Shown here piece by piece: positions 47,365-64,000 of a stretch of 64,000 nt of DNA. The notes below the pieces were generated by a model. It was not told where the DNA came from. It made no database searches and saw nothing but the letters and a program-made list of their open reading frames with translations. The stretch covers positions 2,418,001-2,482,000 of the forward strand of contig NZ_CP053833.1 of NCBI RefSeq assembly GCF_013201935.1, read 5' to 3'. Both the position numbers and the translations under genes were made by a program. The stretch is from Arcobacter cloacae. GTDB taxonomy: Bacteria > Campylobacterota > Campylobacteria > Campylobacterales > Arcobacteraceae. Every line of letters starts with the position of its first letter. Positions within the stretch are counted from its first letter, which is position 1.

Positions 47365-47391
47365 ATGTGTCATAATCAAAAAGGATTTATT

Positions 47392-48769: not shown

Positions 48770-50794
48770 TTATAATAATCTTTTTAAACAAAAAATATAA
48801 TCTTCAAAAATAATCTTTAGTTGATTTATATAAATTTCTTTTATTTTGTTAACTTTTTTTGGTTCATTTTTAATTTTTATATCATTAAAATGATAAGATA
48901 AATAGGGTATCAACATCATAAGATATTTTTTTAATATCCCTATTATTAGTTTATTGTTCACATTAATTGAAAAATATAAATCCGTAACTTTTTCATAAAA
49001 TTCTTCATAAGTTTTTAATTCACAATTTAGTAATTCTAAAAGAGCTATATTTATAATATTTTCTATTTCTTTTATATCTTCTTTCAAATCTTTTTTAGAT
49101 TCTTTGTTTAAATGATTTAAAGAATATTGATTTAATAAATTTATTAAAACAATATTCTGATAATTTAGATTTTTAAACTTTTCAATTTTTATATTATTTT
49201 TATCTAGAGGTTTAACATTTTCAAAATATGCTCCATTAAAAGATAAATTATATATGTTGCAATTTATTTCTTTACTAACTATTTCTTCTAAAGCTTTAAT
49301 AGAATTATAAAATAAACCTATAGTACTAACTTCTTCTCGCATATTACCTTTTACTTTTACTAAACCTCTAATAGAAAAATCCTCTTTTTTCTGATTTTTA
49401 TTTAAATCATATTTACGAGTACTTGAAGAACTATTTTTTGAATGACTTTCCCCTGTTTCTTGATCTAATGCTAAATCTAATCCAATAAGATAAATTTCTT
49501 TTGCATTCATTTTAAGTAAAATATCTAAAGTTATTTCTCCAATACTATATCCTTCGAAAGTAATATTATTTTTATGAAATGGTATAGATACCTCATATAA
49601 AAAAAGAGTTTTTTGTTTTAGTTTTGATAGTAAACTTATATTAGTTTTTACAGAGGCTAAAATAATAGTATTTTGATTTATTTTAGACACACTGTTATCA
49701 TCAAATTGTATATCATTTAAAATAGCTGATTCATCAAGAGTAGTTATCATATCTATTTTAATATTGTTATTTAATAGTTTTTTATAAGCAGCTCCTATTG
49801 TTACAATAAAAAATTTATTTTGATTTTCCTTTATCCATTCCATACTCTCATCTAAAGATGGACCTGCTGCTATATATAACACAGGAATATTATCAAAAAA
49901 ATTCAATTTTTCTTTTATCTGGTTCATTAATAAAATTTTGTAATCCATATCTAAAATTTGTGTTACTCTATTTCCTAATGAATATAAGTATCTTGTATAA
50001 GTATATTGAGATGAATTATTAACTAAATGGAGGGTTGTATTCAAAGTATCTATATATTTATCTATATTTACTTCTGAACTTGAGAATTTTAACATATAAT
50101 TTTTAAGTAAAGAACTTTTCATAAACTTTTGTATTCTCTTTTCTTCTTCTAATGGATTATCCATTATTGAAAAAACAACACCTTTATTTCCAAGAATAGT
50201 ATAATCTACAGTAAATAATGATAATCTAAATATTTCTAAATTTCTTTCCAAAACTAGATACGATTCAGCATCTATTTTTTCAGCAATTCGAGGGATATGC
50301 CTACCTAATAAAGTACCTAAAAAAACAAACTTTTCAATTTTTTTTAATTTTTTCTTTTTCTTTCTTAAAAAATCATTTAAAAAATTTGAATATTCAAACA
50401 TATCATTTTGTGTTAAAGCAAGATAATTAGTTCCATCATCAGAAAATCTATTCTTTTTATCTACATCTAATTTTCTATCTATCGCAAAATAATTCTCTAC
50501 AAAATATATACTATTTTTTTCATCAAGTTCTACTTTTCTAACTAATTTATCATTGATTTCTTTAGGTCTTTTATCATAAAGATATTTATCATTAATTAAA
50601 TCATAAATATCAAAATCTCCATTTTCTATAATAAATTCTAATGCATATTTTTCTTTATACGTTCCATTTTCTATCATACGAGAAAGTTCATCTACTCTAT
50701 GATAAAGTTGATTGTCATATTCACTTAAAAAAGCGAGATTTGCTAAAAAAGTGGTTAACAGTGCATTTTGTAATTGTATTTCTGCTTCTTTCAT
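48770..50794 (-). CDS. maf: Motility accessory factor (Maf) family flagellin glycosyltransferase
   Basis: 674 residues of the Maf/DUF115 type. The nucleotide-sugar-binding core begins at VLYIAAGPSLDESMEWI and continues through KFFIVTIGAAYKKLL, IDMITTLDESAIL and EIYLIGLDLALDQETGESHS. The N-terminal block (KKIEKFVFLGTLLGRHI then YLVLERNLEIFRLSLF) is also typical. Maf proteins transfer nonulosonic acids such as legionaminic or pseudaminic acid from CMP donors to flagellin Ser/Thr. Divergent from a second Maf gene, 40 bases apart. Confidence 0.9.
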   Translation of the reverse strand: MKEAEIQLQNALLTTFLANLAFLSEYDNQLYHRVDELSRMIENGTYKEKYALEFIIENGDFDIYDLINDKYLYDKRPKEINDKLVRKVELDEKNSIYFVENYFAIDRKLDVDKKNRFSDDGTNYLALTQNDMFEYSNFLNDFLRKKKKKLKKIEKFVFLGTLLGRHIPRIAEKIDAESYLVLERNLEIFRLSLFTVDYTILGNKGVVFSIMDNPLEEEKRIQKFMKSSLLKNYMLKFSSSEVNIDKYIDTLNTTLHLVNNSSQYTYTRYLYSLGNRVTQILDMDYKILLMNQIKEKLNFFDNIPVLYIAAGPSLDESMEWIKENQNKFFIVTIGAAYKKLLNNNIKIDMITTLDESAILNDIQFDDNSVSKINQNTIILASVKTNISLLSKLKQKTLFLYEVSIPFHKNNITFEGYSIGEITLDILLKMNAKEIYLIGLDLALDQETGESHSKNSSSSTRKYDLNKNQKKEDFSIRGLVKVKGNMREEVSTIGLFYNSIKALEEIVSKEINCNIYNLSFNGAYFENVKPLDKNNIKIEKFKNLNYQNIVLINLLNQYSLNHLNKESKKDLKEDIKEIENIINIALLELLNCELKTYEEFYEKVTDLYFSINVNNKLIIGILKKYLMMLIPYLSYHFNDIKIKNEPKKVNKIKEIYINQLKIIFEDYIFCLKRLL

Positions 50795-50821
50795 CTATAA
50801 CCTTTACTTTATATTTATTAC

Positions 50822-50829
50822 ATTATACT
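50822..50829. promoter_or_regulatory. Overlapping divergent -10 elements between the two maf genes
   Basis: ATTATACT reads TATAAT on the minus strand (50827-50822) for the first maf gene and TATACT on the plus strand (50824-50829) for the second. The plus-strand -10 ends 5 bases before the ATG at 50835, so that transcript may be nearly leaderless. No -35 is obvious for either. Confidence 0.4.
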
Positions 50830-50834
50830 ACGCT

Positions 50835-52685
50835 ATGGATAAAACATCAGCATATGAAGAAATAGAAAAAACTTTACAAGAGATATTTATTAATAATTTA
50901 GAATTTTTTAAAATAAATTTTCCTTTGATCTATAAAAAAATAGTTGAATTTGAAAAATTAAATTTAGAAAATTATTCAATTAATTTTATAAATAATAAAT
51001 TTCAATTAAATAATACCCCTACTAATCAAAATTTTTACGAAATTGAACCTTTTCAAGATTCTATGAACAGAATCAATAAATTTGATATTTCTTCAGCATT
51101 TAATTTAGTAAAAATTGAACAATTAAAAAATAAAAATCCTTATAAAAATGAAATAAATGCTTATTCCTATCTAAATGAATTTATAGAGCATTTTCAAAAT
51201 ATTGATATAAAAATAAATAAATTCATTTTTTTGGGAACTTTACTGGGAGTTCATATAAATGATTTTGATAAATTTTTAAAAGCAAAAACTTATTTTATAT
51301 TTGAACCAAATATTGAAATATTTAGACTATCTATGTTTATGACTGATTATAAAATTTTATCTAAAAATGCTAAGCTATTTTTTGCAATAAATGAAGATGA
51401 ACAGGGTTTAAATAACATATGTAAAGAATTCTTAAATTACAACTATGAATTTAACAATCTGATTCATTTTGAATTAGCTGACAAAATAAATGAACCTTTA
51501 ATTAATGAACTATCTTTAATTTTTACTCACTTAGGAGAAATGAGACATCCTTTTTCTGAATATTTAATAAGTTTAAAAAGATTTCATAATTATTTCGTTA
51601 ATAATAATTATAATTTAATTAATATATCAAAAATTCATAATTTCTTAGAAGATAAAAGAATTTTATTTTTAGCTGCAGGTCCATCTTTAGAAAGAAACTT
51701 AGATTTTGTACATAAAAATAAGAATAAATTTATAATTGTTACGGTTGCAGCTACATTAAAAATCTTAGAAACAAAAAAAATTACTCCGGATATAATAATA
51801 ACTGTTGATGGTCATCATATAATATCAAAACAATTTGAAGTTGATAAATCTATATATGAAAATTCTATCATCTTATCTTCGATAAAACTTGACATCGAAA
51901 TACATAAACTTTTTAAAAATGAAAATCTGTTTTTTTTCCAAAATTCTTTAAATCTATTTGAAGAATTTGGTTTTATAACTGGAGTAACTGTAGGAGATAT
52001 TGGTATAGATTTACTATTGAGATTGGGTGCTAATAATTTATATCTTTTAGGAGTCGATGCTGCCATAGATTCTAAAACAGGGATAACACATATAAATACA
52101 CATTCTCATTCAAAAAAAATAGATCTTGATTATAATAAAACTATTGATTTTAATAAAACAATACTTTATGTAAAAGGAAATTTTGAAGAAAAAGTACCAA
52201 CTCTTATGGAATATAAAGAAATGATAGAAGAAATAAATGAAAAATTTAGTTTTATAAATGATAATCTTAAGATTTTCAATCTTTCTAATGGGGCATATTT
52301 TAATAATACAATATCTCTAAGAGCTTCTAAACTAAAAATAGATGAAGTTGTTAACAAAGATATTTTTAAAGAATTATTTTTAGAAAAATTACATTCTATT
52401 TTAGAAAAAAATATAAATGAAAAATTTAAGAAAAACTTTGCAAAAGAAAATAAAATATTATCTGAAGTAAGAAATATAGATAAAAATATTAATTTCTATA
52501 AGAATTTCAAAGATATTCAACAAAAATACCCAAATTCTATATCTCTTGATATATTAGAAAAATACTTAAAATTAATATTACCTTATTATAATTTATTAAG
52601 AAATCAATCTTTAGCAAATAATATTCTAGAAAAACAATTGAATGAAATCATAAATAAATTATTTGTTATATTCTCTTTAGATTAA
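50835..52685 (+). CDS. Second Maf-family flagellin glycosyltransferase
   Basis: 616 residues from the ATG at 50835 (MDKTSAYEEIEKTLQEIF). The open frame extends to 50712, but that part runs antisense into the other maf gene and is not Maf-like. Core motifs: NKFIFLGTLLGVHI, YFIFEPNIEIFRLSMF, ILFLAAGPSLERNLDFV, PDIIITVDGHHIIS and LYLLGVDAAIDSKTGITH. It is clearly homologous to the 48770-50794 protein but well diverged, which suggests a different donor sugar or acceptor site. Its 3' end overlaps the convergent legF gene by 20 bases. Confidence 0.88.
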   Translation: MDKTSAYEEIEKTLQEIFINNLEFFKINFPLIYKKIVEFEKLNLENYSINFINNKFQLNNTPTNQNFYEIEPFQDSMNRINKFDISSAFNLVKIEQLKNKNPYKNEINAYSYLNEFIEHFQNIDIKINKFIFLGTLLGVHINDFDKFLKAKTYFIFEPNIEIFRLSMFMTDYKILSKNAKLFFAINEDEQGLNNICKEFLNYNYEFNNLIHFELADKINEPLINELSLIFTHLGEMRHPFSEYLISLKRFHNYFVNNNYNLINISKIHNFLEDKRILFLAAGPSLERNLDFVHKNKNKFIIVTVAATLKILETKKITPDIIITVDGHHIISKQFEVDKSIYENSIILSSIKLDIEIHKLFKNENLFFFQNSLNLFEEFGFITGVTVGDIGIDLLLRLGANNLYLLGVDAAIDSKTGITHINTHSHSKKIDLDYNKTIDFNKTILYVKGNFEEKVPTLMEYKEMIEEINEKFSFINDNLKIFNLSNGAYFNNTISLRASKLKIDEVVNKDIFKELFLEKLHSILEKNINEKFKKNFAKENKILSEVRNIDKNINFYKNFKDIQQKYPNSISLDILEKYLKLILPYYNLLRNQSLANNILEKQLNEIINKLFVIFSLD

Positions 52686-53352
52686 ATACTTCCTTTGCAA
52701 TCAAAAAATCTAATTCATCATCAATATCAACAGAATATATTTTATCCATTATGTAAGCAAAAATATTTTCTTGTAGAAAGAAACCTTTATTTTTTAATAA
52801 TTCTTCAGTTTTACAAATATAAATAGCTCCATTTAATCTGTAAAATATTGGTAAATCTTGACTTCTTTTATTTATTATCTCTTCTCTTAAAAAATTTGAC
52901 ATATTTAAGTCTTCATCTAATGTATTACACCATAATGGTGAGTGTTCAGTTTCACAAACACTTATAACAGCATTGGCATCTTTTTTATTTAATAACTCTA
53001 TTGCTTCATCAATATGCTTTTCATTTCTTAATGGACTTGTGGGTTGAAGAAGAACAATATAGTCATATTTTTCTAAACTATTTATAGTGTGTTCAAGCAC
53101 ATCAAAAGTAGAAGAAGTATCTGTTGCTAAATAATCTGGTCTTTTTATAATATCGGCACCAAATTTTTGAGAAATTTGAAGTATTTTTTCATCATCACTA
53201 GAGACAATAACTTTAGATATATATTTACTTTTTAGTCCTGCTTCAATACTATAAGAAATAAGTGGTTTACCACATAAATCTAAAACATTTTTTCTAGGTA
53301 ACCTTTTACTTCCACCACGAGCAGGAATTATTGCTAAAAAAGTTTTATTCAT
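52666..53352 (-). CDS. legF: CMP-legionaminic/N-acetylneuraminic acid synthetase (LegF/PtmB type)
   Basis: Activates a nonulosonic acid with CTP. From the ATG at 53352 (MNKTFLAIIPARGGSKRLPRKN), about 228 residues; the open frame extends to 53394 but that overlaps ptmE more than needed. Family motifs: IPARGGSKRLPRKN, LLQPTSPLR and an acidic metal site in YSVDIDDELDFL. It is the last gene of the operon and provides the CMP-sugar used by the Maf proteins. CMP-Neu5Ac synthetase is the nearest alternative; the PtmE/LegB context favours legionaminic acid. Confidence 0.88.
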   Translation of the reverse strand: MNKTFLAIIPARGGSKRLPRKNVLDLCGKPLISYSIEAGLKSKYISKVIVSSDDEKILQISQKFGADIIKRPDYLATDTSSTFDVLEHTINSLEKYDYIVLLQPTSPLRNEKHIDEAIELLNKKDANAVISVCETEHSPLWCNTLDEDLNMSNFLREEIINKRSQDLPIFYRLNGAIYICKTEELLKNKGFFLQENIFAYIMDKIYSVDIDDELDFLIAKEVFNLKRI

Positions 53353-54394
53353 TGAATATCCTAAAATATTCACTTTGGGCTTGTTCAAAATCACTCATTC
53401 TTCCAATATCAAGCCAATATTCATGAATAGGAAATGATAAAACTTTTTTTTCTTTTTCTATTAAAATATTAAATAGTGTTGGCATATCAAAAAACTCATT
53501 TTTTGGAATAAATTCAAAAATATTTGGAGATAAAACATAAATTCCTGCATTTACAAAAAACTTTTTAATAGGTTTTTCAATGATTGAAGCTATGCTGCTA
53601 TTTTCTATTTCAATAACTCCATAAGGTATTTGATATTCATATTCTCTAACACACATAGTTGCATTTGCATTTCCAAAACAATGAAAATCTAATAAATTTG
53701 AAAAATTTACATCAGTTAATAAATCAGCATTCATCACAAAAAATGGCTCATTTGGTTGCTCTTTTAAAAGACTTAATGCTCCTGCCGTTCCAAGTCTTGT
53801 ATTTTCTTCTACATAATCAATATTAACTCCAAAATCACTACCATCTTTAAAATATTCTCTTATAATCTCAGCTTTATAATTTAAACTTATTGTAATATTT
53901 ACAAAACCATGAGAGGCAAAGTTTTTGATGATAGTTTCCAAAATTGGTTTATTTCCAACTTTTAACATGGGTTTTGGTATATCTTCTGTAAGAGGTCTAA
54001 GTCTTGTTCCTAAACCTCCTGCCATTAAAATTACTCTATTTCTTTTTTTAGTTACATTTAATAGAGTTGCTAAATTTACAATATCTAATAAATAATTATT
54101 CTCATCAACTATTGGTATTTGATAAACTTCATTCTTTATAGCTTTTTGTATAATTCTTTCTTTTGATTCACTATATAATGCAGTAATTGGTGTCTTAAAA
54201 TATAACTCTTTTATAGAATCTTCTAAGGTATGATTTTTTAAAAGACCTCTTCTAATATCCCCATCACTAAGTGTTCCTAAAAGTTTTTTGTTATTATCAA
54301 CAACTAAAGCTATTCTAATAGCCCCTTTATCAATTATTTTTAAAGCTTCTTTTATTTTTGTATTTTCAGTAATCAATAATGTATTTATATTCAT
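53345..54394 (-). CDS. ptmE: CBS-domain sugar-1-phosphate guanylyltransferase (PtmE type)
   Basis: 349 residues: two CBS motifs (about 1-115) followed by an NTP-transferase domain with LMAGGLGTRLRPLTEDIPKPMLKVGNKPI, FVMNADLLTDVNF and a C-terminal YWLDIGRMSDFEQA. This fusion is the layout of Campylobacter jejuni PtmE, which makes GDP-GlcNAc for the GDP-based legionaminic acid route. Overlaps the PIG-L gene by 4 bases and legF by 8. Confidence 0.85.
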   Translation of the reverse strand: MNINTLLITENTKIKEALKIIDKGAIRIALVVDNNKKLLGTLSDGDIRRGLLKNHTLEDSIKELYFKTPITALYSESKERIIQKAIKNEVYQIPIVDENNYLLDIVNLATLLNVTKKRNRVILMAGGLGTRLRPLTEDIPKPMLKVGNKPILETIIKNFASHGFVNITISLNYKAEIIREYFKDGSDFGVNIDYVEENTRLGTAGALSLLKEQPNEPFFVMNADLLTDVNFSNLLDFHCFGNANATMCVREYEYQIPYGVIEIENSSIASIIEKPIKKFFVNAGIYVLSPNIFEFIPKNEFFDMPTLFNILIEKEKKVLSFPIHEYWLDIGRMSDFEQAQSEYFRIFNE

Positions 54395-55047
54395 AAAATT
54401 TCCTTTAATAACATGAAACTTTCAGCATATTCACATCCACTTATAGCTCCTCTAAAAGTTGCTAGTGCTTTTATATTTCTTTCATTTCTTGGAAATGGAT
54501 GTTCTGCTATTTCACTTTTAAAAATTTGCATAATTTCAAGCTTTTTATCTATAAAATCACTAATATCTACAAATACATTTGGAATAAAGCTATCTTCTTT
54601 AGTACTTGGTGCAAACTCTGTTTCACTCAAAGTTTCCATCATATAAATTTTTTTGATAAATGGATATCGAAATGATTTTGTACAACTATAACTTGCTTCA
54701 AAAATCTTTCTATGATCACTATGAACATCTCCTTTAAAAGGAAGATAAATAATATTTGGCTTAATTTCACTTATCACTTTTGAAATTTTTCTTACAAGCT
54801 CACTCATAGAATACTCATCAACTTGCATAGTTTTTAATCTTAAATTATGAACACTATCAAAATTATATAGTTCTGATACTTTTTCTATCTCTTTTTCTCT
54901 TGTTTCATAGTAACTATGATTTTCATCTATAGTGGTACAAATAAGCCAATGAATCTCATCTTCTTTTGCTTTATGTTTCAATAAAGTACCACTACATCCT
55001 AATGTTTCGTCATCTGGATGAACAGCAACAACCAAAATTTTATTCAT
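54391..55047 (-). CDS. PIG-L family (LmbE-like) deacetylase
   Basis: 218 residues with the zinc site AVHPDDETLGCSG (H-P-D-D) and the second ligand in DVHSDHRKIFEAS. PIG-L/LmbE enzymes remove N-acetyl groups from amino sugars and related molecules. It is between legG and ptmE and overlaps both, so it is part of the sugar operon. A deacetylase is not among the core legionaminic acid enzymes; it may free an amino group for another substituent. Substrate is inferred. Confidence 0.85.
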   Translation of the reverse strand: MNKILVVAVHPDDETLGCSGTLLKHKAKEDEIHWLICTTIDENHSYYETREKEIEKVSELYNFDSVHNLRLKTMQVDEYSMSELVRKISKVISEIKPNIIYLPFKGDVHSDHRKIFEASYSCTKSFRYPFIKKIYMMETLSETEFAPSTKEDSFIPNVFVDISDFIDKKLEIMQIFKSEIAEHPFPRNERNIKALATFRGAISGCEYAESFMLLKEIL

Positions 55048-56188
55048 TGATTAACTCTAATGGATCTTCATCTTTAATCAAAAAATTTTTAAAATCAATT
55101 TTCTTAATTAATAAGTAGGCCTTTTCAGAACTATGTCCATCACCAAAAGGATTTACAACATTATCTAAAATATTTTTATTATTAGGATTAATAACAAAAT
55201 TAATTGCATCTTCAATATCTGTTTTATTAGATGAACAATATATAATATTATCACTCTTTAATCTATCTTTTTGTCTTAACCCAACGTTTACAGCAAATTT
55301 TTTTAGTGTTGCAGCTTCATAAATACCTGCCGAAGAATTACCTATAATAAATTGACAATTATTAAAAATAGTCAAATATACATCTCTTGATAAATTTTTA
55401 TAAAAATAAAATTCATCCTTATAATTAATAAATTCTTCAATTAATTCAATTATTCCTTGATGGTTAGGATCACTATTTGGATAACTGACTATTGTAAATA
55501 TTTTCTTTTCTTTAAGAATAGATAATATTTCTTTAAATATCATTTTACTATCTTCATTTTCCATAGGATGAAAAATCATTAATGCATAGTTTAAAGGAAT
55601 ATTTCTACTTAAAATTTCCTGAATATTCAATTTATTATATTTAAAAAGTCTATCCAAACTTATACTTCCAATATTAAATATTCTTTTCTCTGATTCTCCT
55701 AAAGATATTAACCTTTTTTTATGCATTTCATTTGATACAAAATGCAAACTAGATAATTTTGATGTAGCATGACGAATATATGTATCATTTCCCATATCTT
55801 TTTCATGGTCTCCTCCATAAAAATGTATAGAAGGAATATTTAAATACATACTTAATAGCCCACCTATTATCACGTCTTCTCTATCTCCCGCATAGAGAAT
55901 TAAATCAGGATTAAAAAATGAAACAACGTCAATACTATTTTGAAGTAAAATACTTGCTGTTTTAAGTCTTGATTTTGGAGTATCAGAACTAATTAAAGTT
56001 TCAATTTCTAATAAAATATCTAAATTATCAGATTCTATCTGCTTCTTTGAAAAACCAAAATTTTTTGATAAATGAGCTCCTGATACCAAAAGTTTCAACT
56101 CAATTTCATGATCTTCATGTAATTTTGTATACAAAGACGATAGTAAATCATAATCTGAACGAATTGATGTTATTCCAAGAATTTTCAT
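55040..56188 (-). CDS. legG: Hydrolysing NDP-sugar 2-epimerase (LegG/NeuC type)
   Basis: 382 residues, GT-B fold. Starts ILGITSIRSDYDLLSSLY, with YAGDREDVIIGG in the middle and NSSAGIYEAATLKKFAVNVG with RQKDRLKSDN near the C-terminus, all typical of NeuC-like hydrolysing epimerases. In the GDP route it converts the GDP-2,4-diacetamido-2,4,6-trideoxyglucose intermediate to the free mannose-configured sugar for LegI. Three bases from the HAD gene and an 8-base overlap with the PIG-L gene. Confidence 0.88.
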   Translation of the reverse strand: MKILGITSIRSDYDLLSSLYTKLHEDHEIELKLLVSGAHLSKNFGFSKKQIESDNLDILLEIETLISSDTPKSRLKTASILLQNSIDVVSFFNPDLILYAGDREDVIIGGLLSMYLNIPSIHFYGGDHEKDMGNDTYIRHATSKLSSLHFVSNEMHKKRLISLGESEKRIFNIGSISLDRLFKYNKLNIQEILSRNIPLNYALMIFHPMENEDSKMIFKEILSILKEKKIFTIVSYPNSDPNHQGIIELIEEFINYKDEFYFYKNLSRDVYLTIFNNCQFIIGNSSAGIYEAATLKKFAVNVGLRQKDRLKSDNIIYCSSNKTDIEDAINFVINPNNKNILDNVVNPFGDGHSSEKAYLLIKKIDFKNFLIKDEDPLELINE

Positions 56189-56191
56189 TAT

Positions 56192-56836
56192 TTACCTTAT
56201 ATATTTTTTTAATTCAATTAGACTCTTAATATTCAACTTAGAGTCATACACAATATTTGACGCATAACCATTTAGAAATCTAAGTGTTTTAATTTTTAGT
56301 TTTTCTGCTCCTACAATATCAGTATACGGATGATCTCCTATATAAATAACTTCATTATTTTTACTATTTACTAATTCTAATGCTTTTTCAAAAGAATAAC
56401 TATGTGGTTTTTCATATTCAATACCTTTTTCTCTTGCATAAACTATAAAATCTACATATTTATCTAAGCTTAATGATTTTACCTTATTTCTTTGAACTTC
56501 AACTACACCATTTGTTATAACTACAACTTTTATATTTAACCTACGTAAATAACCTAAAATATTTATCGCATCATCATAAAGTTTTAATGAGCAATCTATA
56601 CTCTTATACAATTCAAATAACTCATTTTGTCTATCTTCTGTATAAAAGTTTATTTCTTTTAATACTTCACTAAAAAGATCCTTATTTCTAATTCTAAAAT
56701 TATTATCATCAAAAATTTCTAAAATCTTACTATAATTTATCTCATTTTTTAATGCAAATAACTTAAAAACTTTTTTAAAATATTCATCTTCATCATATAG
56801 TGTATTATCAAGGTCAAACAAAACTGATTTAATCAT
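56192..56836 (-). CDS. HAD-superfamily phosphatase
   Basis: About 214 residues from the ATG at 56836 (MIKSVLFDLDNTLYDEDEYF), which overlaps the ATP-grasp stop by 8 bases; the frame extends to 56857. Motif I is FDLDNTLYD, motif II VVITNG, motif III Lys near KPHS, motif IV YIGDHPYTDIVGA. It belongs to the small-molecule phosphatase group with a helical cap (YjjG/NANP-like). In a sugar operon it could dephosphorylate an intermediate, as N-acylneuraminate-9-phosphatase does, but LegI makes an unphosphorylated product, so its substrate is open. Confidence 0.8.
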   Translation of the reverse strand: MIKSVLFDLDNTLYDEDEYFKKVFKLFALKNEINYSKILEIFDDNNFRIRNKDLFSEVLKEINFYTEDRQNELFELYKSIDCSLKLYDDAINILGYLRRLNIKVVVITNGVVEVQRNKVKSLSLDKYVDFIVYAREKGIEYEKPHSYSFEKALELVNSKNNEVIYIGDHPYTDIVGAEKLKIKTLRFLNGYASNIVYDSKLNIKSLIELKKYIR

Positions 56837-57878
56837 TATGATCCCAAACTTGATCAAAATATCTTAAAAAAATTTTGGGTTTTTCAAACTTAGATTTATC
56901 TACAGTTATATTACTTCCCAATAACAGTTTCAATGCCTCTAAAGGAAAATTAAAACCAATATCTTTATCTATACCACTACTTGCACCTATCCGAGGATTT
57001 AAATCAAATAAAACAATTCTCCCATCACTTGATGTCGCTAATTCTATATTATTAGTATAAGATAAATTAAACTTTTCAATTATTTTAGCTGCCAAATTTT
57101 CAATTTTTACATCATAACATACTCTTCCTCTAAATGTTTGAGAAGCATTTCCCCATTCACGAATATGATTTAATGAAAAAATATTTTCCCCATTATTAGA
57201 AATGGAATAAACACTATAATAAGGTTCATCTAAATATTCCATTATTATTAAATCATCAAATTTATTTTCATCTCTTAAAATTTTTTCAAAAAATTCTAAA
57301 GGATACTCGGTAATTGGCTTTGATTCAAATACATTTTGAAAATTAAATTTGTTACAAAGAATATATACACCTCTTCCACCTCTTCCAAATCTCGGTTTTA
57401 TAACTACTTTATTGTTTGGATAACCTAATTTTTTAATTGATATCATAAACTGTTCATAATTATTTACAATCTCATATCTAGGAGCATGTTCTGGCATATG
57501 CTCTGTTAATTCTTTATAAACTGTTCCTTTATCATATGCTTTAATTAAACTATCGTATGAACTCACCATTATTTTACATGAAACTAATTCACTATATTTA
57601 GATAGTGCTAAATTATCTTCATTTCCACATGGTATTACTACATCAACTTTATACTTTTTAACCATTTCTTGTATAAACTCAACAAATAGTTTTTCATTTA
57701 CAACACTATTAGGAGAAAGTTCAAATATATCTACAAATTTCTTTCCTACAGCAAATTCAAAAGCATCAACACCAATAAGATTTATTTCAAATTCATCACA
57801 ATCTTTATATGCCCTTAAAATATCAGGACTCGTCATTCCACCTACTGTAGTTATTAGTATATTTAATTTGTTTTTCAT
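56829..57878 (-). CDS. ATP-grasp ligase (carbamoyl-phosphate-synthase-like)
   Basis: 349 residues. N-terminal Rossmann-like part (ILITTVGGMTSPDILRAYK) followed by an ATP-grasp domain: VVIKPRFGRGGRGVYI (nucleotide loop), IIMEYLDEPYYSVYSI and the metal ligands in LFDLNPRIGASSG. Such enzymes form amide or thioester bonds through an acyl phosphate. In this operon it may attach an amino acid or other acyl group to a sugar amine. No close functional relative can be named from sequence alone. Confidence 0.78.
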   Translation of the reverse strand: MKNKLNILITTVGGMTSPDILRAYKDCDEFEINLIGVDAFEFAVGKKFVDIFELSPNSVVNEKLFVEFIQEMVKKYKVDVVIPCGNEDNLALSKYSELVSCKIMVSSYDSLIKAYDKGTVYKELTEHMPEHAPRYEIVNNYEQFMISIKKLGYPNNKVVIKPRFGRGGRGVYILCNKFNFQNVFESKPITEYPLEFFEKILRDENKFDDLIIMEYLDEPYYSVYSISNNGENIFSLNHIREWGNASQTFRGRVCYDVKIENLAAKIIEKFNLSYTNNIELATSSDGRIVLFDLNPRIGASSGIDKDIGFNFPLEALKLLLGSNITVDKSKFEKPKIFLRYFDQVWDHND

Positions 57879-58555
57879 TAATAATCCTTTCGTAACACTC
57901 CAAAATAATGAGAGGAAGTCTCTTCAGGTTTAAGAAATGATGTTCTTTGCTTAAATCCAATATCTAAAATACTAAACTTTTCAAAGTAATTCTCAAAATC
58001 CTCTTTATTTTCAGGAATTACTACAATACAATCCTTTTGTGAAGGGATTCTTTCATCAACTTGAAAGGTATTTTTTGAAATTTCTTTTGAATAATAATAT
58101 GAGATATCTTCTCTAGTTGCAAGGGTTGTTATTAATATTCCACCTTTTTTAAGATATTTATGAAAATGTGAAATAACCTCTTTTACCGATTCATCTGTAT
58201 TATATGATATTACATGCCAAGCAAGTATTAAATCAAATTTCTCTTCAAACTCTTCCACATAATTATTTGAATTTATAAACAAATTGTTCTTATCAAAATT
58301 TTCATAAGAAAATAATCTTTTTGATGTAATCTCTTTTGCAATCTCTGAAATTTCAATACCATAAAACTCATTTACCTTATCAATAATAAACTCAGAATTA
58401 TTACCACTTCCAAAACCATAATCTAAGCAAGTTATATGATTAGGAAGAATATTTTTTATTCTATGATACAAAATAACTAAGGTTTCATCTGGATACATCA
58501 TATATGAGTATCCTTTGTCATAAATTTTATTCCATGATTCTTTGTTTTGCTTCAT
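57878..58555 (-). CDS. SAM-dependent methyltransferase
   Basis: 225 residues, class I fold. Motif I is CLDYGFGSGNNSEF, with an acidic residue in YGIEISE and post-I LILAWHVISYNTDES; GGILITTLATRED is typical of the strand-5 region. Substrate is unknown; being locked between the ATP-grasp and FAD genes (1- and 4-base overlaps) it probably acts on the nonulosonic acid or the group added to it. Confidence 0.78.
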   Translation of the reverse strand: MKQNKESWNKIYDKGYSYMMYPDETLVILYHRIKNILPNHITCLDYGFGSGNNSEFIIDKVNEFYGIEISEIAKEITSKRLFSYENFDKNNLFINSNNYVEEFEEKFDLILAWHVISYNTDESVKEVISHFHKYLKKGGILITTLATREDISYYYSKEISKNTFQVDERIPSQKDCIVVIPENKEDFENYFEKFSILDIGFKQRTSFLKPEETSSHYFGVLRKDY

Positions 58556-59946
58556 AATATCTCCTTGATTTTTAAATATGCATCTTTTATTACATGACTT
58601 TCGAAAAATAAACCTTCTTCACTTAATATACCTATACTTACTAAATTTTTTAAATTTAAACTTTTTATTTCTTTTCTTATTATATTAGTATTCTCTATAT
58701 TATTTTGAGTCAAAAAAGGAAATCCATACTCTAAAACTTCTGTCTTTATAAACATTATTTGAGTATGAGGTTCTAACATATTATATTCAAAAAGTTCACT
58801 AATGATTTTTTCTTCAAGTTTCTCCTTATTAGGTTCTTCAAAATGTAATGTTTCAACACTTATTGGATAGTAACCTTTTCTCTTTGCACCTTCACAATAG
58901 TTAATGTAATTGTCAACTCTAAATATACTTGTTCCTTGATCATAAGAATAAATAAAACTTAACTCACCACATTTTAACTTTTTATCTATAAGAATATTTG
59001 TAATCACTGTTTTTGGGTGATTATCAAATTTTAAAGATTTATCCAGATTAATATTTAACATCTGCGATAATGGATACACTCCTATTGAAGAAACAATCTT
59101 ATCTATTTTATAATTTATACCATTTATCTCTACTTTTTCAACTTTATTAAAATCTACTTGCAAATTCGTTACTGTTGAATTCATGTGAAATATAACGTTC
59201 ATATCTCTTAATTTTTTTTCAATTGCATCTATTACTTTATAAATCCCATAACTCTTAGGATAAAGACTTCTTAAATGAACTAAATATTCATTAGGAAGAT
59301 TCATTTGTTCAGTATAACTGAGCCTTGAACCTATATTTTTACAATGAACTAGTTCTTTCATAATATGCTCTTCAAATAAAACAATTCTAGTAAATTGAGT
59401 TAAAAAAAGAACCATTGTATTTAAATCTTTCGGGTGTTTCTGATACAGCTTTTTAATTGCTGGAACAATTATCTCATCCGTAATTTTTACCCCAAATAAA
59501 AACAAAGAGTATGAATATGCATCTTTTTTATGTAAGTCTTCAAATTCTGAATTATTTAAATTAAGATTTTGAAAAAAATCTCCAATATATTCAGAAATTT
59601 TTTCATTCTCTCTTAAATCCATAAAAGGTGAATTTTCTTGAAGCTTTTTATTATACATTAATCCAGTCAATGCTCTTAACTGTCCATTAATTGTTGTAGT
59701 CACTTGCCATTCATTTTCATCAAACAAATTTAAATAGAAGTCATCTAAATCTTTTATTCCTGTCTCTAATATATTATGAGCACCATAGTCAAAATAACCA
59801 TATTCATCATAGTCAAAAGATTTTAATAATCCCCCTAATCTATCAGTTTTTTCTACAATATGAACTTCATATTCTCCACTATTTGCCAGTAAGTAAGCTG
59901 TTGTTAAGCCCGAAATACCTCCACCTATAATAACTACTCGTTTCAT
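58552..59946 (-). CDS. FAD-dependent oxidoreductase (UDP-galactopyranose mutase/protoporphyrinogen oxidase-like)
   Basis: 464 residues. The dinucleotide-binding motif is VVIIGGGISGLTTAYLLA and the second FAD stretch is VEKTDRLGGLLKSF, followed by YGAHNI. Overall layout resembles NAD(P)/FAD oxidoreductases found in surface polysaccharide clusters and related to UDP-galactopyranose mutase. It may catalyse a redox or mutase step on the nonulosonic acid or its precursor. The exact reaction cannot be read. Overlaps legI and the methyltransferase by 4 bases each. Confidence 0.8.
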   Translation of the reverse strand: MKRVVIIGGGISGLTTAYLLANSGEYEVHIVEKTDRLGGLLKSFDYDEYGYFDYGAHNILETGIKDLDDFYLNLFDENEWQVTTTINGQLRALTGLMYNKKLQENSPFMDLRENEKISEYIGDFFQNLNLNNSEFEDLHKKDAYSYSLFLFGVKITDEIIVPAIKKLYQKHPKDLNTMVLFLTQFTRIVLFEEHIMKELVHCKNIGSRLSYTEQMNLPNEYLVHLRSLYPKSYGIYKVIDAIEKKLRDMNVIFHMNSTVTNLQVDFNKVEKVEINGINYKIDKIVSSIGVYPLSQMLNINLDKSLKFDNHPKTVITNILIDKKLKCGELSFIYSYDQGTSIFRVDNYINYCEGAKRKGYYPISVETLHFEEPNKEKLEEKIISELFEYNMLEPHTQIMFIKTEVLEYGFPFLTQNNIENTNIIRKEIKSLNLKNLVSIGILSEEGLFFESHVIKDAYLKIKEIL

Positions 59947-60941
59947 ATTATTTCGTCCTTTTTGTAATCTTTCTTTGCAATAGTGCCTATAATATCATAC
60001 CAGTTCATCGGACTAATTCCATTTGAAGGTCTTTTCACACCAAGATTTTCTTTAGTTAATAAATCACCTTTCCTAATTTCACTATTTGCTACTATTGACT
60101 TTCTTGCTGTAATGATATTTTTAGATTCACTTTTTGAAGGTTTTTTAATTCCATTTCCCAATGCTAGTTCTATATTTCTTATTGCTTTAACCATTGCTTT
60201 TAACTCTGAAGGTTCTAATGAAGCCTGATGATCTGGTCCTTTCATATTCTTGTCTAAAGTAAAATGTTTTTCTATAACTGTTGCACCCATAGCAACTGCT
60301 GCTATATCAACTTCTATTCCTAATGTATGATCACTATATCCATAATTACAATTAAAAGTATATCCAATTGTATTCATAGCTTTTAAATTAACATCCTCCA
60401 TTGGCGTTGGATACTCTGTATTTGTATGAAGAATAGTAATATTTTCTTTTTTTGTGCCAGAATTAATAAGAATATCAAGTGCATCTTCTATTTCCCCTAT
60501 ATCAGCCATCCCTGTAGATAATATTATTTGCTTGTTTAATTTTCCTATTTGTTCTAAATAAGGTAGATTTGTTATCTCTCCACTTGGAATTTTAAAAATC
60601 TTTAATCCTAAATCATCTAATAAGTTTACACTATCATTATCAAAAGGAGTAGATAAAAACATTATATTCTTAAAATTACAATATTCAAGAAGTATTTTAT
60701 GTGTATCTACATCTAATTCTAACTTTTTAATCATTTCAAACTGATTTTCTTCTGTAGAAGTAGTTTTTTTTTGATACTCAGCTTTTTGAGCATTTATAGA
60801 AACTAAATTTTCTGTTTTAAATGTTTGAAATTTAACGGCATCAGCTCCTGCTTCACTTGCAACATCAATTAGTTTTTTTGCAAGATCAACTGAACCGTTA
60901 TGATTTACTCCTGCTTCTGCTATTATAAATACTTTATTCAT
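59943..60941 (-). CDS. legI: N,N'-diacetyllegionaminate synthase (LegI/NeuB family)
   Basis: Condenses a six-carbon diacetamido sugar with phosphoenolpyruvate to a nine-carbon nonulosonic acid. 332 residues with FIIAEAGVNHNGSVDLAKKL, DAVKFQTFKTENL, YSDHTLGIEVDIAAVA, GATVIEKHFTLDK and a C-terminal antifreeze-like SAF domain (RKSIVANSEIRKGDLLT). NeuB (sialic acid) is the close alternative; LegB, LegC and PtmE in the operon favour legionaminic acid. Coupled to both neighbours by 4-base overlaps. Confidence 0.9.
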   Translation of the reverse strand: MNKVFIIAEAGVNHNGSVDLAKKLIDVASEAGADAVKFQTFKTENLVSINAQKAEYQKKTTSTEENQFEMIKKLELDVDTHKILLEYCNFKNIMFLSTPFDNDSVNLLDDLGLKIFKIPSGEITNLPYLEQIGKLNKQIILSTGMADIGEIEDALDILINSGTKKENITILHTNTEYPTPMEDVNLKAMNTIGYTFNCNYGYSDHTLGIEVDIAAVAMGATVIEKHFTLDKNMKGPDHQASLEPSELKAMVKAIRNIELALGNGIKKPSKSESKNIITARKSIVANSEIRKGDLLTKENLGVKRPSNGISPMNWYDIIGTIAKKDYKKDEII

Positions 60942-61513
60942 TTTACTAAACTCCCCACTTTTATAAATCCATCTATTTTTATACCTTGTTTAGAAGTTGC
61001 ATTACTTCCAAAAAAACTATTTTCTTTTACAATAACTCCACCATTTATTACACTTGCTGTTGAAATATGGCAATTATCTTCTACAATACAATCATGCTCA
61101 ATAAGTGCTTTTGTATTTATTATACAATTTTTTCCAATTTTTACATTTGCATTTATTAATGCTTGATGCATAATAACTGTTCCTTCTTCTATAACACTAT
61201 GTTTAGAAACATATGCTAGTGGAGAAATTATTACAGGTAAATTAAAACCTATTTCTTTTAATTTATTATATATTTTAACTCTTGTTTTATTTGATTCTAT
61301 TTGTCCTACTGTTATGAGTGCATTTTTACAAGTTTCAAAAATCGTTTCTAAATCATCATCACAAGCAATAACTTCATAATCTAAAACTTTTTTACCTATA
61401 TTTTCTTTAGTATCAACTATACCAATAATTTCATATCTATTTTCTTGCTCAACTACATCAATAACACTATGACAATGCCCACCACCACCAATTAGAACCA
61501 TTTTTTCTTTCAT
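60938..61513 (-). CDS. legH: Sugar N-acetyltransferase, PglD/NeuD/LegH type
   Basis: 191 residues: an N-terminal Rossmann-like half (VLIGGGGHCHSVIDVV) and a C-terminal left-handed beta-helix with hexapeptide repeats (VKIGKNCIINTKALI) and the catalytic His in IEHDCIVEDNCHIS. Placed immediately after the aminotransferase, it fits LegH, which N-acetylates the 4-amino group of the NDP-sugar using acetyl-CoA. A NeuD-like O-acetyltransferase is the alternative. It shares one base with legC. Confidence 0.82.
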   Translation of the reverse strand: MKEKMVLIGGGGHCHSVIDVVEQENRYEIIGIVDTKENIGKKVLDYEVIACDDDLETIFETCKNALITVGQIESNKTRVKIYNKLKEIGFNLPVIISPLAYVSKHSVIEEGTVIMHQALINANVKIGKNCIINTKALIEHDCIVEDNCHISTASVINGGVIVKENSFFGSNATSKQGIKIDGFIKVGSLVK

Positions 61514-62649
61514 TATGAAATCACCGAACTTGGAATATTTACAACTCTTTCTTCAAGATATTTTGCATTTTTTAAATCTGTTTTTTGACAATCTTTAAAC
61601 ATTTCAAGTTCATTCATAAGTTTCCAAAGAGGTCTTGTCATTACACCATTTTTATTTGTAAAATCCAAAAATTCATTTCTTTGATTTACATCATTTAATA
61701 AAACTGCTTGAAGCCAGTAGTTTGATTTTGAATCTTTTGGTTCAATTATAAAATTCATATTATTTGTTGTAAAAAACTCTTTATATTTTACTGCTAACTC
61801 TCTTTTTGAAGCTAAAAACTTTTCTAATTGTTCAAGTTGAGCAACTAAAAGTGCAGCGTTAATATTAGGAAGTCGATAGTTATAACCTATTTCGTCATGT
61901 ACATATTCGTATAGATGAGGAATTTTTGCAGTTGTAGTGATATGTTTTGCTCTTTTAGCTAATGTTTCATCATCTGTAACAATAACTCCTCCACCACCTG
62001 AAGTTATAATTTTATTACCATTAAAAGAAAATGCTCCAACTTTTCCAAAAGTTCCAGTATGTTTATCTTTATAATAACTTCCCAGACTTTCAGCTGCATC
62101 TTCAACTAAAGTAATATGCCAAATATCACAAATTTCTTTTATTTCATCTATCTTACATGGATGCCCAAAAGTATGCATAGGAACACATGCTTTTATAGTT
62201 TTTCCAGTTGTTTTATTTACACATTTATTTTCTATAATTTCACAATTTTGTTCTAAAAAATCTTTCAGATTTTCAGGACTTAAACCCATAGTGTCTAAAT
62301 CAACATCAACAAATATAGGTTTTGCTCCTATATAACTAATAGCATTACAAGTTGCAATAAAAGTAAGTGGTTGAGTTATAACTTCATCATCTTTTTTCAC
62401 ATCTGCTAAAAGTAGTGAAATATGAAGAGCAGCGGTACCATTTACAGTTGCTATTGCATATCTACTTCCCACTATTTTGGCAAATTCTTTTTCAAAAGTA
62501 TCAACATATTTTCCAACACTTGATACAAATGTTGAATCTATACAATCATTTAAATATTTCTTTTCGTTACCAATAAATCTTGGTTCATGTAAGGGTATAA
62601 ACTCATTTGTTTTAAATGTTTCTTTTATAAAATCAACTATTTTTTGCAT
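61513..62649 (-). CDS. legC: Sugar aminotransferase LegC (DegT/DnrJ/EryC1 family)
   Basis: PLP enzyme that aminates C4 of the 4-keto-6-deoxy NDP-sugar made by LegB. The ATG at 62649 (MQKIVDFIKETF) is chosen because the longer frame to 62694 would run into legB. About 378 residues with FIPLHEPRFIGNEKKYL, GTAALHISLLLADV, LVEDAAESLGSYY (PLP Asp) and the lysine in SFNGNKIITSGGGGVIV. One base after the legB stop. Confidence 0.9.
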   Translation of the reverse strand: MQKIVDFIKETFKTNEFIPLHEPRFIGNEKKYLNDCIDSTFVSSVGKYVDTFEKEFAKIVGSRYAIATVNGTAALHISLLLADVKKDDEVITQPLTFIATCNAISYIGAKPIFVDVDLDTMGLSPENLKDFLEQNCEIIENKCVNKTTGKTIKACVPMHTFGHPCKIDEIKEICDIWHITLVEDAAESLGSYYKDKHTGTFGKVGAFSFNGNKIITSGGGGVIVTDDETLAKRAKHITTTAKIPHLYEYVHDEIGYNYRLPNINAALLVAQLEQLEKFLASKRELAVKYKEFFTTNNMNFIIEPKDSKSNYWLQAVLLNDVNQRNEFLDFTNKNGVMTRPLWKLMNELEMFKDCQKTDLKNAKYLEERVVNIPSSVIS

Positions 62650-62650
62650 A

Positions 62651-63838
62651 TTACATTTTCCCATCAAGATATTTACCTGTCTCTTTATGCCCAAAATCTG
62701 GAATCATCGTAAAAAATTCTTTAACAATATCTTCTTTTGTCCAAGATAAATTTGATTTAAAATTTTTAATAGTTTTTTCAAAATGATTTAATTTATCTTC
62801 ATCAAATAAAGCTTCATTTTTAATAATTCCAAGATTTTCAAATTTAGCCATATCTAAAACTTCTTTATCAGTAAAAAACTCTTCAAAATCCTTTTCACCT
62901 GTTGTATCACTAGGTGTGAATAAACAAGGCCATTTACCCTCTAATGGTAAAGTTTTTACCAATTCTCTTGCTTCATCTTCATCTTTACATAAATATGGTT
63001 CATATCCTAAATTTTTTAAATATTTAACTGCAATATCTGCAAAAGTGATAAGATGTAAATTTTCACTTAATTTTGGGAAAAAGATATCTCTATTTTCACC
63101 GAAAATACATGACATAAGGCAAAGTTCACCACTTTCTTGAGGAGTTACAAAATATCTTTTTATATCATTTGGAGCAACTATTGGTTGATTTTTTTGAATT
63201 CTTTGATTAAATCCATGTAATAAACTTCCATCACTAAAAGCAACATTTGCAAATCTAGCCATTGAAACATCTATTTGTTTTGATTTTCGCATTACAAACA
63301 TTTCCATAATTCTTTTACTAGCACCCATCATATTTACTGGATTTGCCGCTTTATCTGTACTTACACAAAAGTACTTTTTAGTTCCATTCTTACATGATTG
63401 TTTAAGAGTTTTATCTGTATTAAATACATTCGTTTCAATCATTCTCATAAGTGTATATGGATCTTTTTCACTTCTTACATGTTTTAAAGCTGATAAATTT
63501 AAAACATAATCATATTTTCCATCTGCTTTTATAAAAGCATCATATTCAAGGCTTCCTATATCAAGTGCAAATGTAGCAAATTCTCCATCTATGTAACCAA
63601 AACTACTTCGTATATCTCGAACTAATTCAACCATATTATTTTCGCTAATATCAACCACATGAAGTTTTTTTGGATTTCTTTTAAATATTTCTTTAGTTAC
63701 TGCTTGACCAATAGAACCTGCTCCTCCTATAACTAAAAATGTCGAATTTGTCACTATTTTAGAAAGTTCTTTCTCATGATTATTTATATCTTCTACAAAT
63801 AACTCTTTTGTCCTTCCTATTAAATTTAGTACATTCAT
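62651..63838 (-). CDS. legB: NDP-GlcNAc 4,6-dehydratase LegB (polysaccharide biosynthesis SDR)
   Basis: Extended SDR of 395 residues that dehydrates NDP-GlcNAc to the 4-keto-6-deoxy sugar. Cofactor motif LVIGGAGSIGQAVTKEI (33-49), then LNLSALKHVRSEKDP and VSTDKAANPVNMMGASKRIMEMFV, where Met replaces the usual catalytic Tyr as in the FlaA1/PglF group. With PtmE in the operon the likely substrate is GDP-GlcNAc. GGATA precedes the ATG. It is the first clear pathway gene, 15 bases after the partial gene at the window edge. Confidence 0.9.
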   Translation of the reverse strand: MNVLNLIGRTKELFVEDINNHEKELSKIVTNSTFLVIGGAGSIGQAVTKEIFKRNPKKLHVVDISENNMVELVRDIRSSFGYIDGEFATFALDIGSLEYDAFIKADGKYDYVLNLSALKHVRSEKDPYTLMRMIETNVFNTDKTLKQSCKNGTKKYFCVSTDKAANPVNMMGASKRIMEMFVMRKSKQIDVSMARFANVAFSDGSLLHGFNQRIQKNQPIVAPNDIKRYFVTPQESGELCLMSCIFGENRDIFFPKLSENLHLITFADIAVKYLKNLGYEPYLCKDEDEARELVKTLPLEGKWPCLFTPSDTTGEKDFEEFFTDKEVLDMAKFENLGIIKNEALFDEDKLNHFEKTIKNFKSNLSWTKEDIVKEFFTMIPDFGHKETGKYLDGKM

Positions 63839-63853
63839 GAAATATCCAAATAT

Positions 63854-64000
63854 TTATTTATTTTGTTTATAATACCAAAATATTTTTAAATCAACTGCTT
63901 TAAATAATTTTTCCTTAAAATGAATCATAGATAAAAAACATTGTAGATACAAAATATATATCAAGAGAATATTTAATAAACTAAACCTCTCAACTATTTT
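63854..64000 (-). CDS. 3' end of a further minus-strand gene cut by the window edge
   Basis: A frame open for 48 codons from the window edge to a TAA at 63856-63854, ending AVDLKIFWYYKQNK, only 15 bases before legB. In so AT-rich a sequence a stop-free stretch of this length is unlikely by chance, and the hydrophobic stretch then basic tail looks protein-like. If real, the sugar operon extends beyond the window. No family can be assigned from 48 residues. Confidence 0.5.
   Translation of the reverse strand, partial: KIVERFSLLNILLIYILYLQCFLSMIHFKEKLFKAVDLKIFWYYKQNK

Follow-up and report, generated by a model that had tools for sequence, protein, structure and literature searches.

What five additional enzymes do inside an operon for legionaminic acid (Leg) is the question raised by the DNA studied here, a 64,000-nucleotide stretch of Arcobacter cloacae (contig NZ_CP053833.1, positions 2,418,001 to 2,482,000), called the window below; positions given without a locus name are those of the window. 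Its minus strand from 52666 to 63838 consists of twelve intact, densely packed open reading frames (ORFs) in the order LegB, LegC, LegH, LegI, flavin adenine dinucleotide (FAD) enzyme, S-adenosylmethionine (SAM) methyltransferase, ATP-grasp ligase, HAD phosphatase, LegG, PIG-L deacetylase, PtmE and LegF. This bears out the twelve same-strand genes with small overlaps or tiny gaps described by the original prediction, which had been made from the sequence of the window, and the domains that it named for the five extra proteins are present (Pfam). Our answer is that the operon probably makes Leg5X7Ac for flagellin: PIG-L would bare the N5 amine and the ATP-grasp enzyme would re-acylate it with another group, X. 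Comparison with related loci showed that the predicted eraser, PIG-L, is constant, that the predicted writer of the new acyl group varies, and that the exchange takes place at gene borders; from it we infer each reaction, the placement at N5, the timing with respect to LegG and the nature of X.

PIG-L and its partner enzymes

The PIG-L/LmbE protein, the proposed eraser, is encoded at 54391..55047 on the minus strand (Pfam PIG-L, 83.9 bits against a cut-off of 28.2). In a sample of 397 Campylobacterota genomes, 31 contain a strong profile match to it (E <= 1.4e-98, the next match lying at 4e-40). Weak matches (E 4e-40 to 1e-31), present in 25 genomes that have no strong one, were excluded from the counts; a formyltransferase adjoins PIG-L in both of the weak-match loci L104 and L105. 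LegI was found at E <= 1e-100 in 28 of the 31 PIG-L genomes versus 92 of the 366 others, and the remaining three PIG-L genomes have a NeuB of 35–38% identity at the locus. We compared 34 PIG-L loci, namely the 31 strong ones, one from a congener and two contigs of metagenome-assembled genomes (MAGs). LegI was visible in 27 of them, at least one gene of backbone type in all 34, and a likely N-acyl-forming enzyme lay no more than three genes from PIG-L in every case. These writers comprise 11 formyltransferases, 11 GNAT-related proteins, 11 ATP-grasp proteins (10 of the window's kind and one, in L101, of a second kind, GR2) and one WbqC protein (L099). They were named by Pfam for one member per kind and by similarity for the rest; the writer of L092 has MaoC and GNAT domains.

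As a control, we fetched 80 of the 92 LegI genomes without a strong PIG-L, and the slot between LegI and PtmE could be measured in 73 of these and not in seven. The PIG-L profile had no match in the 80 fetched loci, and none of the 73 measurable slots holds any of the listed acyl enzymes (0/73); LegG stands alone in 66 of them. The same slot was readable in 25 PIG-L loci, 21 of which hold a writer. Hence, the suggestion in the original prediction that deacetylation and ligation yield a further-modified nonulosonic acid gained support from the comparison, with PIG-L and a likely writer together in 34 of 34 loci and no writer in the PIG-L-free slots. PIG-L appears to be the constant element of these operons, and the writer appears to be exchanged between strains.

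Seven control slots hold more than LegG: amidotransferases in L125 and L136, a Maf-like ORF in L139, and unlabelled ORFs in L121, L127, L157 and L170. The acetamidino chemistry of the amidotransferases would alter the acetyl group without removing it. By eye, HisF-like and HisH-like genes accompany a PseA-like amidotransferase in L090:9795-12323, L125 and L136, and they probably supply ammonia to it. The unlabelled slot ORFs were recognised by eye as MNT/HEPN-type, ORF6N-type and DUF1016-type; one ORF of L170 was not recognised. More generally, ORFs with no evident sugar role lie between Leg backbone genes at L031:12263-13312, L094:2971-3816 and 5380-6276, L121:5546-6272, L127:5978-6859 and L157:7427-10033, and by eye these resemble DUF1016, RhuM and ORF6N proteins and MNT/HEPN pairs.

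A tblastn search of plasmids returned 106 records for PIG-L, of which five were opened, and five for the ATP-grasp protein, of which two were opened. Three of the five opened PIG-L records are nonulosonic acid clusters, each with a likely writer: Ensifer adhaerens pA (LegC, PtmE, LegG, PIG-L, LegI, a GR2-type ATP-grasp and HAD), a S. mexicanum plasmid (LegI, LegH, a GNAT-related protein, LegG and PIG-L) and the cyanobacterial plasmid of Synechococcus NIES-970 (formyltransferase, PIG-L and NeuB). A Ruegeria plasmid has a formyltransferase beside PIG-L and no NeuB. These plasmid cases ruled out that the association of PIG-L is confined to Campylobacterota. For the ATP-grasp protein, a Haloferax glycan cluster (L196) has the gene without an adjacent HAD; a Haloarcula plasmid glycan cluster (L195:6059-9757) carries a polysaccharide deacetylase, an ATP-grasp protein (27%) and a HAD-IA hydrolase, with no NeuB annotated in the stretch. 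A single-sequence scan of genome contigs with the ATP-grasp protein gave no confirmed match.

The ATP-grasp cassette and its LegG

The ATP-grasp gene of the window, the proposed N-acyl writer (56829..57878, minus strand; Pfam ATPgrasp_Ter over its cut-off), was found in 11 of the 397 genomes at E <= 1e-12. The protein is at least 50% identical to that of the window in seven of those 11, the window's own genome and six of family f13, and 70% identical in the congener G002, which lies outside the sample. All ten ATP-grasp loci compared share the order ATP-grasp, HAD, NeuC/LegG, PIG-L, with HAD next to ATP-grasp, and they include contigs from MAGs that carry the labels Omnitrophota and Deltaproteobacteria. 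The genes preceding ATP-grasp vary: a methyltransferase, an NAD-dependent epimerase-type enzyme and an aminotransferase in the congener (named there by Pfam) and the six f13 loci, the epimerase-type enzyme and aminotransferase alone in the Omnitrophota contig, and the flavoenzyme and methyltransferase in the window. The FAD enzyme, methyltransferase, ATP-grasp, HAD and PIG-L genes that the original prediction grouped do not make up a five-gene block; the conserved unit is ATP-grasp, HAD, NeuC/LegG and PIG-L. The five extra genes as a single conserved block are ruled out, the FAD enzyme being present in 2/397 genomes of the phylum and 2/104 of the family (the window genome counted in both).

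The ATP-grasp protein was modelled with a mean predicted local distance difference test (pLDDT) score of 84.6. Its best fold match was 2pn1 (Z 27.4, root-mean-square deviation (rmsd) 3.0 over 291), and PylC (4ffr) matched at Z 24.5, rmsd 3.2 over 282; the match to the L-amino acid ligase YwfE (Z 22.9, rmsd 4.0 over 303) is level with those to many other ATP-grasp enzymes. The model thus has the fold of ATP-grasp carboxylate-amine ligases, a shared fold that gives no substrate. The adjoining HAD phosphatase (56192..56857, minus strand; Pfam HAD_2, 87.3 bits against a cut-off of 23.8) has N-acylneuraminate-9-phosphatase among its nearest solved structures by sequence. A phosphatase-type neighbour at every ATP-grasp gene of the window's kind suggests, though we hold it to be less likely than not, that the ligated acid is phosphorylated, for instance 3-phosphoglycerate. 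Among more distant relatives, a PHP-domain protein adjoins ATP-grasp instead of HAD in G037 (L033), and the GR2 copies of L043, L044 and L046–L048 have no adjacent HAD. In several genomes of the Helicobacter family GR2 is broken into two ORFs (L043:12269-13190, L047:12222-13144), one of which has a C tract at its edge; in L046 it is a single ORF.

In alignments of eight rows, residues H10, D12, D13 and H112 of PIG-L and D15, D17, T115, K150 and D180 of the HAD phosphatase are invariant; together with the invariant residues of the ATP-grasp protein, we take these to be metal, phosphatase and ATP-site residues. The zinc ligands of PIG-L would be H10, D13 and H112, in the His-Asp...His pattern given for PIG-L/LmbE proteins in the part of PMC4101496 used here.

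The SAM methyltransferase (57878..58555, minus strand; Pfam domain) is 22–24% identical to the methyltransferases of the ATP-grasp or WbqC cassettes in L031, L043 and L099. The flavoenzyme (58552..59946, minus strand) is amine-oxidase-like, with the Pfam domains Amino_oxidase and NAD_binding_8. The one other copy found, L065:9139-10539, stands in a cluster of pseudaminic acid (Pse) type, its Pse genes recognised by eye, beside flagellin-like and Maf-like genes; WbqC, YtoQ and a NanM-type methyltransferase are present in that cluster, and there is no recognisable PseH. A profile search of the PDB with the flavoenzyme gave weak matches alone (best E 1.5e-6, within the first 90 residues or fewer), its AlphaFold model from two sequences had a pLDDT of 39.5 and was not used, and tblastn of plasmids gave no match. 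Methylation and a redox step are plausible from the domain annotation of these two proteins, which probably tailor the new group X.

The LegG of the window (55040..56188, minus strand), a predicted hydrolysing 2-epimerase, scores 352 bits with TIGR03568 (NeuC; cut-off 236), and PIG-L follows it directly with an 8-base overlap. In L086:6827-8701 the two form one 624-aa ORF with Epimerase_2 and PIG-L domains. We built a tree of 74 LegG proteins, in which 28 of 76 PIG-L-free rows were included by random choice and ORFs outside 330–430 aa were dropped except the fused one. LegG proteins that stand beside ATP-grasp, GNAT or WbqC writers form their own clade of 20 rows (support 98/91), composed of an ATP-grasp/WbqC set of 11 and a GNAT set of eight that also takes in the window; LegG of the formyl class falls among PIG-L-free LegG. 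The window LegG as an ordinary LegG of the genus is ruled out, since it is 51% identical at best and falls in a separate clade. LegG appears to belong to the exchangeable unit as a separate lineage. We read the separate clade as exchange before or at the LegG step, and take it as a lead that LegG may handle the changed N-acyl group when this is bulky. In the genomes of the window and the congener, this special LegG is the only NeuC relative found, so it must also do the ordinary step there.

Pairwise alignments place the limits of the cassette close to gene borders. The window and the GNAT-class congener locus L092 are 82% identical over 52705-56167 and 87% over 59943-63921, with no alignment in between, where HAD, ATP-grasp, methyltransferase and FAD enzyme lie. 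HAD and ATP-grasp of the window match those of L031, a locus of the ATP-grasp class, at 72%, and LegG is unaligned there; among the six loci compared, the FAD enzyme aligns with L065 alone (65%). Because the alignments break at gene borders, the cassette appears to have been exchanged there, and the window reads as a mosaic at the level of genes.

The site of exchange and the competing explanations

Which of the two amines is re-acylated can be approached through the interval between LegC and LegI. Among 60 PIG-L-free loci in which it was readable, it holds LegH in 47, a formyltransferase without LegH in seven and neither in six. In five of those seven the order is directly LegC, formyltransferase, LegI; L178 has further genes between LegC and LegI, as does L175, whose formyltransferase is a weak match (51 bits). 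A formyltransferase in LegH's place without PIG-L indicates that a writer acting at the amine freed by LegC needs no deacetylase. LegH is kept in 15 of the 18 PIG-L loci in which LegC and LegI are both visible, and L107 has both arrangements, one formyltransferase in LegH's place and a second beside PIG-L. The retention of LegH in most PIG-L loci makes the other amine, already N-acetylated on arrival and N5 in the finished sugar, the most likely target of the extra writer. Gene content therefore suggests that N5 is the likely site of exchange.

The mechanism that we propose for the window would run as follows. The backbone enzymes would build legionaminic acid, in which the amine freed by LegC and acetylated by LegH would become N7 and the other amine, which would arrive acetylated, would become N5. 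PIG-L would strip the N5 acetyl group around the LegG step, and the ATP-grasp enzyme would couple a carboxylic acid to the bare amine using ATP. The HAD phosphatase would take a phosphate off the donor or the product, and the methyltransferase and flavoenzyme would tailor the new group, for which an amino acid or a small hydroxy acid is the likeliest identity. CMP-Leg5X7Ac would then be loaded onto flagellin by the neighbouring Maf proteins.

Several points weigh against this proposal. In four of the 25 PIG-L loci with a readable slot (L089, L100, L106 and L109) the writer lies near PIG-L and outside the LegI–PtmE slot, LegH is absent in three of 18 readable PIG-L loci, and the control slots of L121, L127, L157 and L170 hold ORFs without a profile-based identity. 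The Fisher value (1e-17) is a guide only and overstates the independent evidence because the genomes are related. Moreover, the list of writers was drawn up after the PIG-L loci had been viewed, and the counts are partly post hoc; WbqC was counted as a putative writer, and the single-domain protein L086:6045-6827, with no Pfam match at 1e-5, was counted as GNAT-related by its likeness to the MaoC-GNAT protein. Among the plasmids, the fresh tests are Ensifer and S. mexicanum only, because NIES-970 was picked after its row had shown a formyltransferase, and in S. medicae PIG-L stands with an aminotransferase and no writer in view, in what is not a Leg cluster. The writer of the window is an ATP-grasp protein, yet the window LegG groups with the GNAT class; its branch is very long (1.3), which makes its placement unsure, and the bootstrap of the tree had not settled. 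Finally, N7 or a later intermediate could be the target of PIG-L.

The explanation that survives best beside N5 exchange, though we consider it unlikely, is exchange at N7, in which the acetyl group added by LegH is the one that PIG-L removes, and the C4 amine the one that the ATP-grasp enzyme re-acylates. Leg5Ac7Ac has an acetyl group on both amines, and the C. botulinum sugar is written Leg5Ac7NMeGlu in the text used from PMC2674064 versus Leg5GluNMe7Ac in that from PMC5207245. However, a writer can replace LegH without a deacetylase, as in the seven PIG-L-free loci described above, and so the retention of LegH in most PIG-L loci would be wasteful under N7 exchange; the formyl and glyceroyl precedents, moreover, sit at N5.

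We regard it as improbable that the extra enzymes leave the N-acyl group unexchanged and instead make a second residue or a substituent at another position, for example position 8. N-acetylglutamine at position 8 is described on C. jejuni Pse (PMC3958885, as far as the portion used here goes), and ATP-grasp and HAD co-occur in the haloarchaeal glycan cluster without an annotated NeuB; yet the cassette contains no glycosyltransferase (Pfam), and an O-substituent would need no deacetylase, although PIG-L is the partner that never changes and forms one ORF with LegG in L086. Least probable is that the accessory genes are mere passengers of the operon and serve some unrelated molecule: relatives' operons do contain ORFs without an evident sugar role (L031:12263-13312, L094, L121 and L157), but one set of four genes comes back in unchanged order across the ten ATP-grasp loci, the Omnitrophota and Deltaproteobacteria MAG contigs included, and in the Ensifer Leg cluster a GR2-type ATP-grasp and a HAD again accompany PIG-L.

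The operon, probable phase variation and known systems

The remaining genes, all on the minus strand, fit a Leg backbone by their domains, and the seven-gene Leg route of the original prediction held in part. Four of its members exceed NCBIfam cut-offs: LegC aminotransferase (61513..62694; TIGR04181, 572.5 bits against 420), the NeuD-type N-acetyltransferase LegH (60938..61513; TIGR03570, 171 against 160.8), the NeuB-type Leg synthase LegI (59943..60941; TIGR03569, 512 against 399.65) and the LegG described above. The gene called LegB (62651..63838), a predicted nucleoside diphosphate (NDP)-GlcNAc 4,6-dehydratase, did not match TIGR04180 (LegB) among its nine listed NCBIfam families and has Polysacc_synt_2 instead; this dehydratase may still run the LegB step, and the claim is that the set works like a Leg pathway. 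LegF, a CMP-sugar synthetase by type (52666..53394), reached no NCBIfam cut-off, its best being PseF at 176 against 205.7 bits, and has Pfam CTP_transf_3. PtmE, a sugar-1-phosphate nucleotidyltransferase by type with a CBS domain, was placed by domain scan (53345..54394). A single NeuB-family protein, the operon's own LegI, was found in the genome, and no other NeuC relative of the operon's LegG was found at E <= 1e-10; the operon is therefore probably the source of the genome's only nonulosonic acid.

With the first possible starts, successive neighbours from LegB to LegF overlap by 44, 1, 4, 4, 4, 1 and 29 bases, are then separated by a gap of 3, and overlap by 8, 4 and 50 bases. The three big overlaps come from upstream TTG or GTG starts, and later ATG codons, picked by eye, give a gap of 1 or overlaps of 8. 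A flagellin gene and two divergent genes for Maf-type flagellin glycosyltransferases (each with Pfam Maf_flag10_N and MptE-like domains) adjoin the operon. The transferases lie at 50712..52685 on the plus strand, where the start is probably at 50832 (by eye), and at 48770..50794 on the minus strand; the flagellin, a likely acceptor recognised by eye, lies at 47365..48237 on the plus strand and shares 64% identity with an L065 ORF that lies next to two Maf-like genes. Just upstream of legB in the window's genome, a 448-aa gene (L032:995-2341), AlbA/Schlafen-like by eye, separates legB from a recA-like gene, which follows legB directly in L031 and L092.

In 13 of the 34 PIG-L loci, a run of 8 to 12 consecutive G residues lies close to the 3′ end of pig-L (for example L043:6514, L045:13371 and L090:8564). 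After the run, the frame continues for 44–66 bases in nine and stops within 6–13 bases in four, and phase variation of pig-L by slipped-strand switching is probable in these relatives. Among the backbone genes, none of 28 LegI, 49 LegG, 20 LegC, 16 LegB and 30 PtmE genes has a G tract, which is present in LegF (2/25) and LegH (2/18). Cassette genes with such tracts are those for formyltransferase (10/27), GR2 (5/12), methyltransferase (4/9) and the ATP-grasp protein GRASP (1/10), and none was seen in HAD (0/11) or GNAT-related genes (0/11). Runs of G or of C in the window never reach a length of 7, which rules out that its own pig-L is phase-variable by a G tract.

Exchange at N5 itself is already known, from 5-N-formyl-Leg (PMC6137143), Pse5-dimethylglyceroyl-7Ac (PMC3068675) and Leg5GluNMe7Ac (PMC5207245), sources that, like the others compared here, were drawn on in part. 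The C. botulinum sugar is a flagellin Leg with an N-methylated glutamyl amide replacing acetyl (PMC5207245) and a PtmH-type methyltransferase is co-encoded (PMC5207245, PMC13317340), as in our proposal; unlike it, no ligase or deacetylase is named in the portions used, and the main text of PMC13317340 is without PIG-L or ATP-grasp. In C. jejuni NCTC 11168, Pse5-(2,3-di-O-methylglyceroyl)-7Ac likewise has another acyl group in place of the N5 acetyl, and Cj1295, whose gene is switched by a G tract in parallel with the relatives' pig-L, is proposed to cleave the C5 acetamido group (PMC3068675). However, the sugar is Pse instead of Leg, Cj1295 has an aminopeptidase-like domain rather than PIG-L, and the acyl writer is unnamed in the part of that source used; a Cj1295-like aminopeptidase domain was found by Pfam in none of the 12 operon proteins. 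Halorubrum sp. PV6 is reported to have an N5 formyl group and clusters LegG (1049), a putative formyltransferase (1050), NeuD (1051) and LegI (1053), but there the sugar belongs to an archaeal N-glycan, and the main text of the report contains neither 'deacetyl' nor 'PIG-L', with gene 1052 unmentioned (PMC6137143). The Shewanella oneidensis operon sfmABCDE serves flagellin modification and, like the window, encodes both a SAM methyltransferase and an ATP-grasp protein; it differs in that it is said to be without clear PseH, PseG, PseI and PseF orthologues, makes a larger two-part modification and has no deacetylase in the main text of the report (PMC3765264).

The N5 groups of flagellar nonulosonic acids differ between strains of C. 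jejuni, C. coli and C. botulinum, and the portions of those reports used here mostly do not assign the enzymes that remove the N5 acetyl group and attach the new one. Among the open-licence papers that the literature searches listed, we found no account of a role for PIG-L in nonulosonic acid synthesis or N5 exchange. What is new is a general, testable rule of PIG-L plus writer, and the window cassette is a rare setting of it. With evenly balanced confidence we would go further and propose a combinatorial eraser-and-writer slot present in several phyla, with a matching LegG lineage for bulky groups and eraser switching in some lineages, of which the window would hold a version not described before: an ATP-grasp ligase coupled to a phosphatase, with a product that is then methylated and, by a flavoenzyme, oxidised to an acyl group not yet seen on flagellin.

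Enzymes that place acids on sugar amines would be useful for making sialic acid analogues, and the rule makes the deacetylation step directly testable. An eraser with a swappable writer would predict the N5 class from the genome, whether formyl, an acyl group derived from coenzyme A or an acid ligated by ATP-grasp, and the poly-G tracts of pig-L in relatives would predict an N5 switch there.

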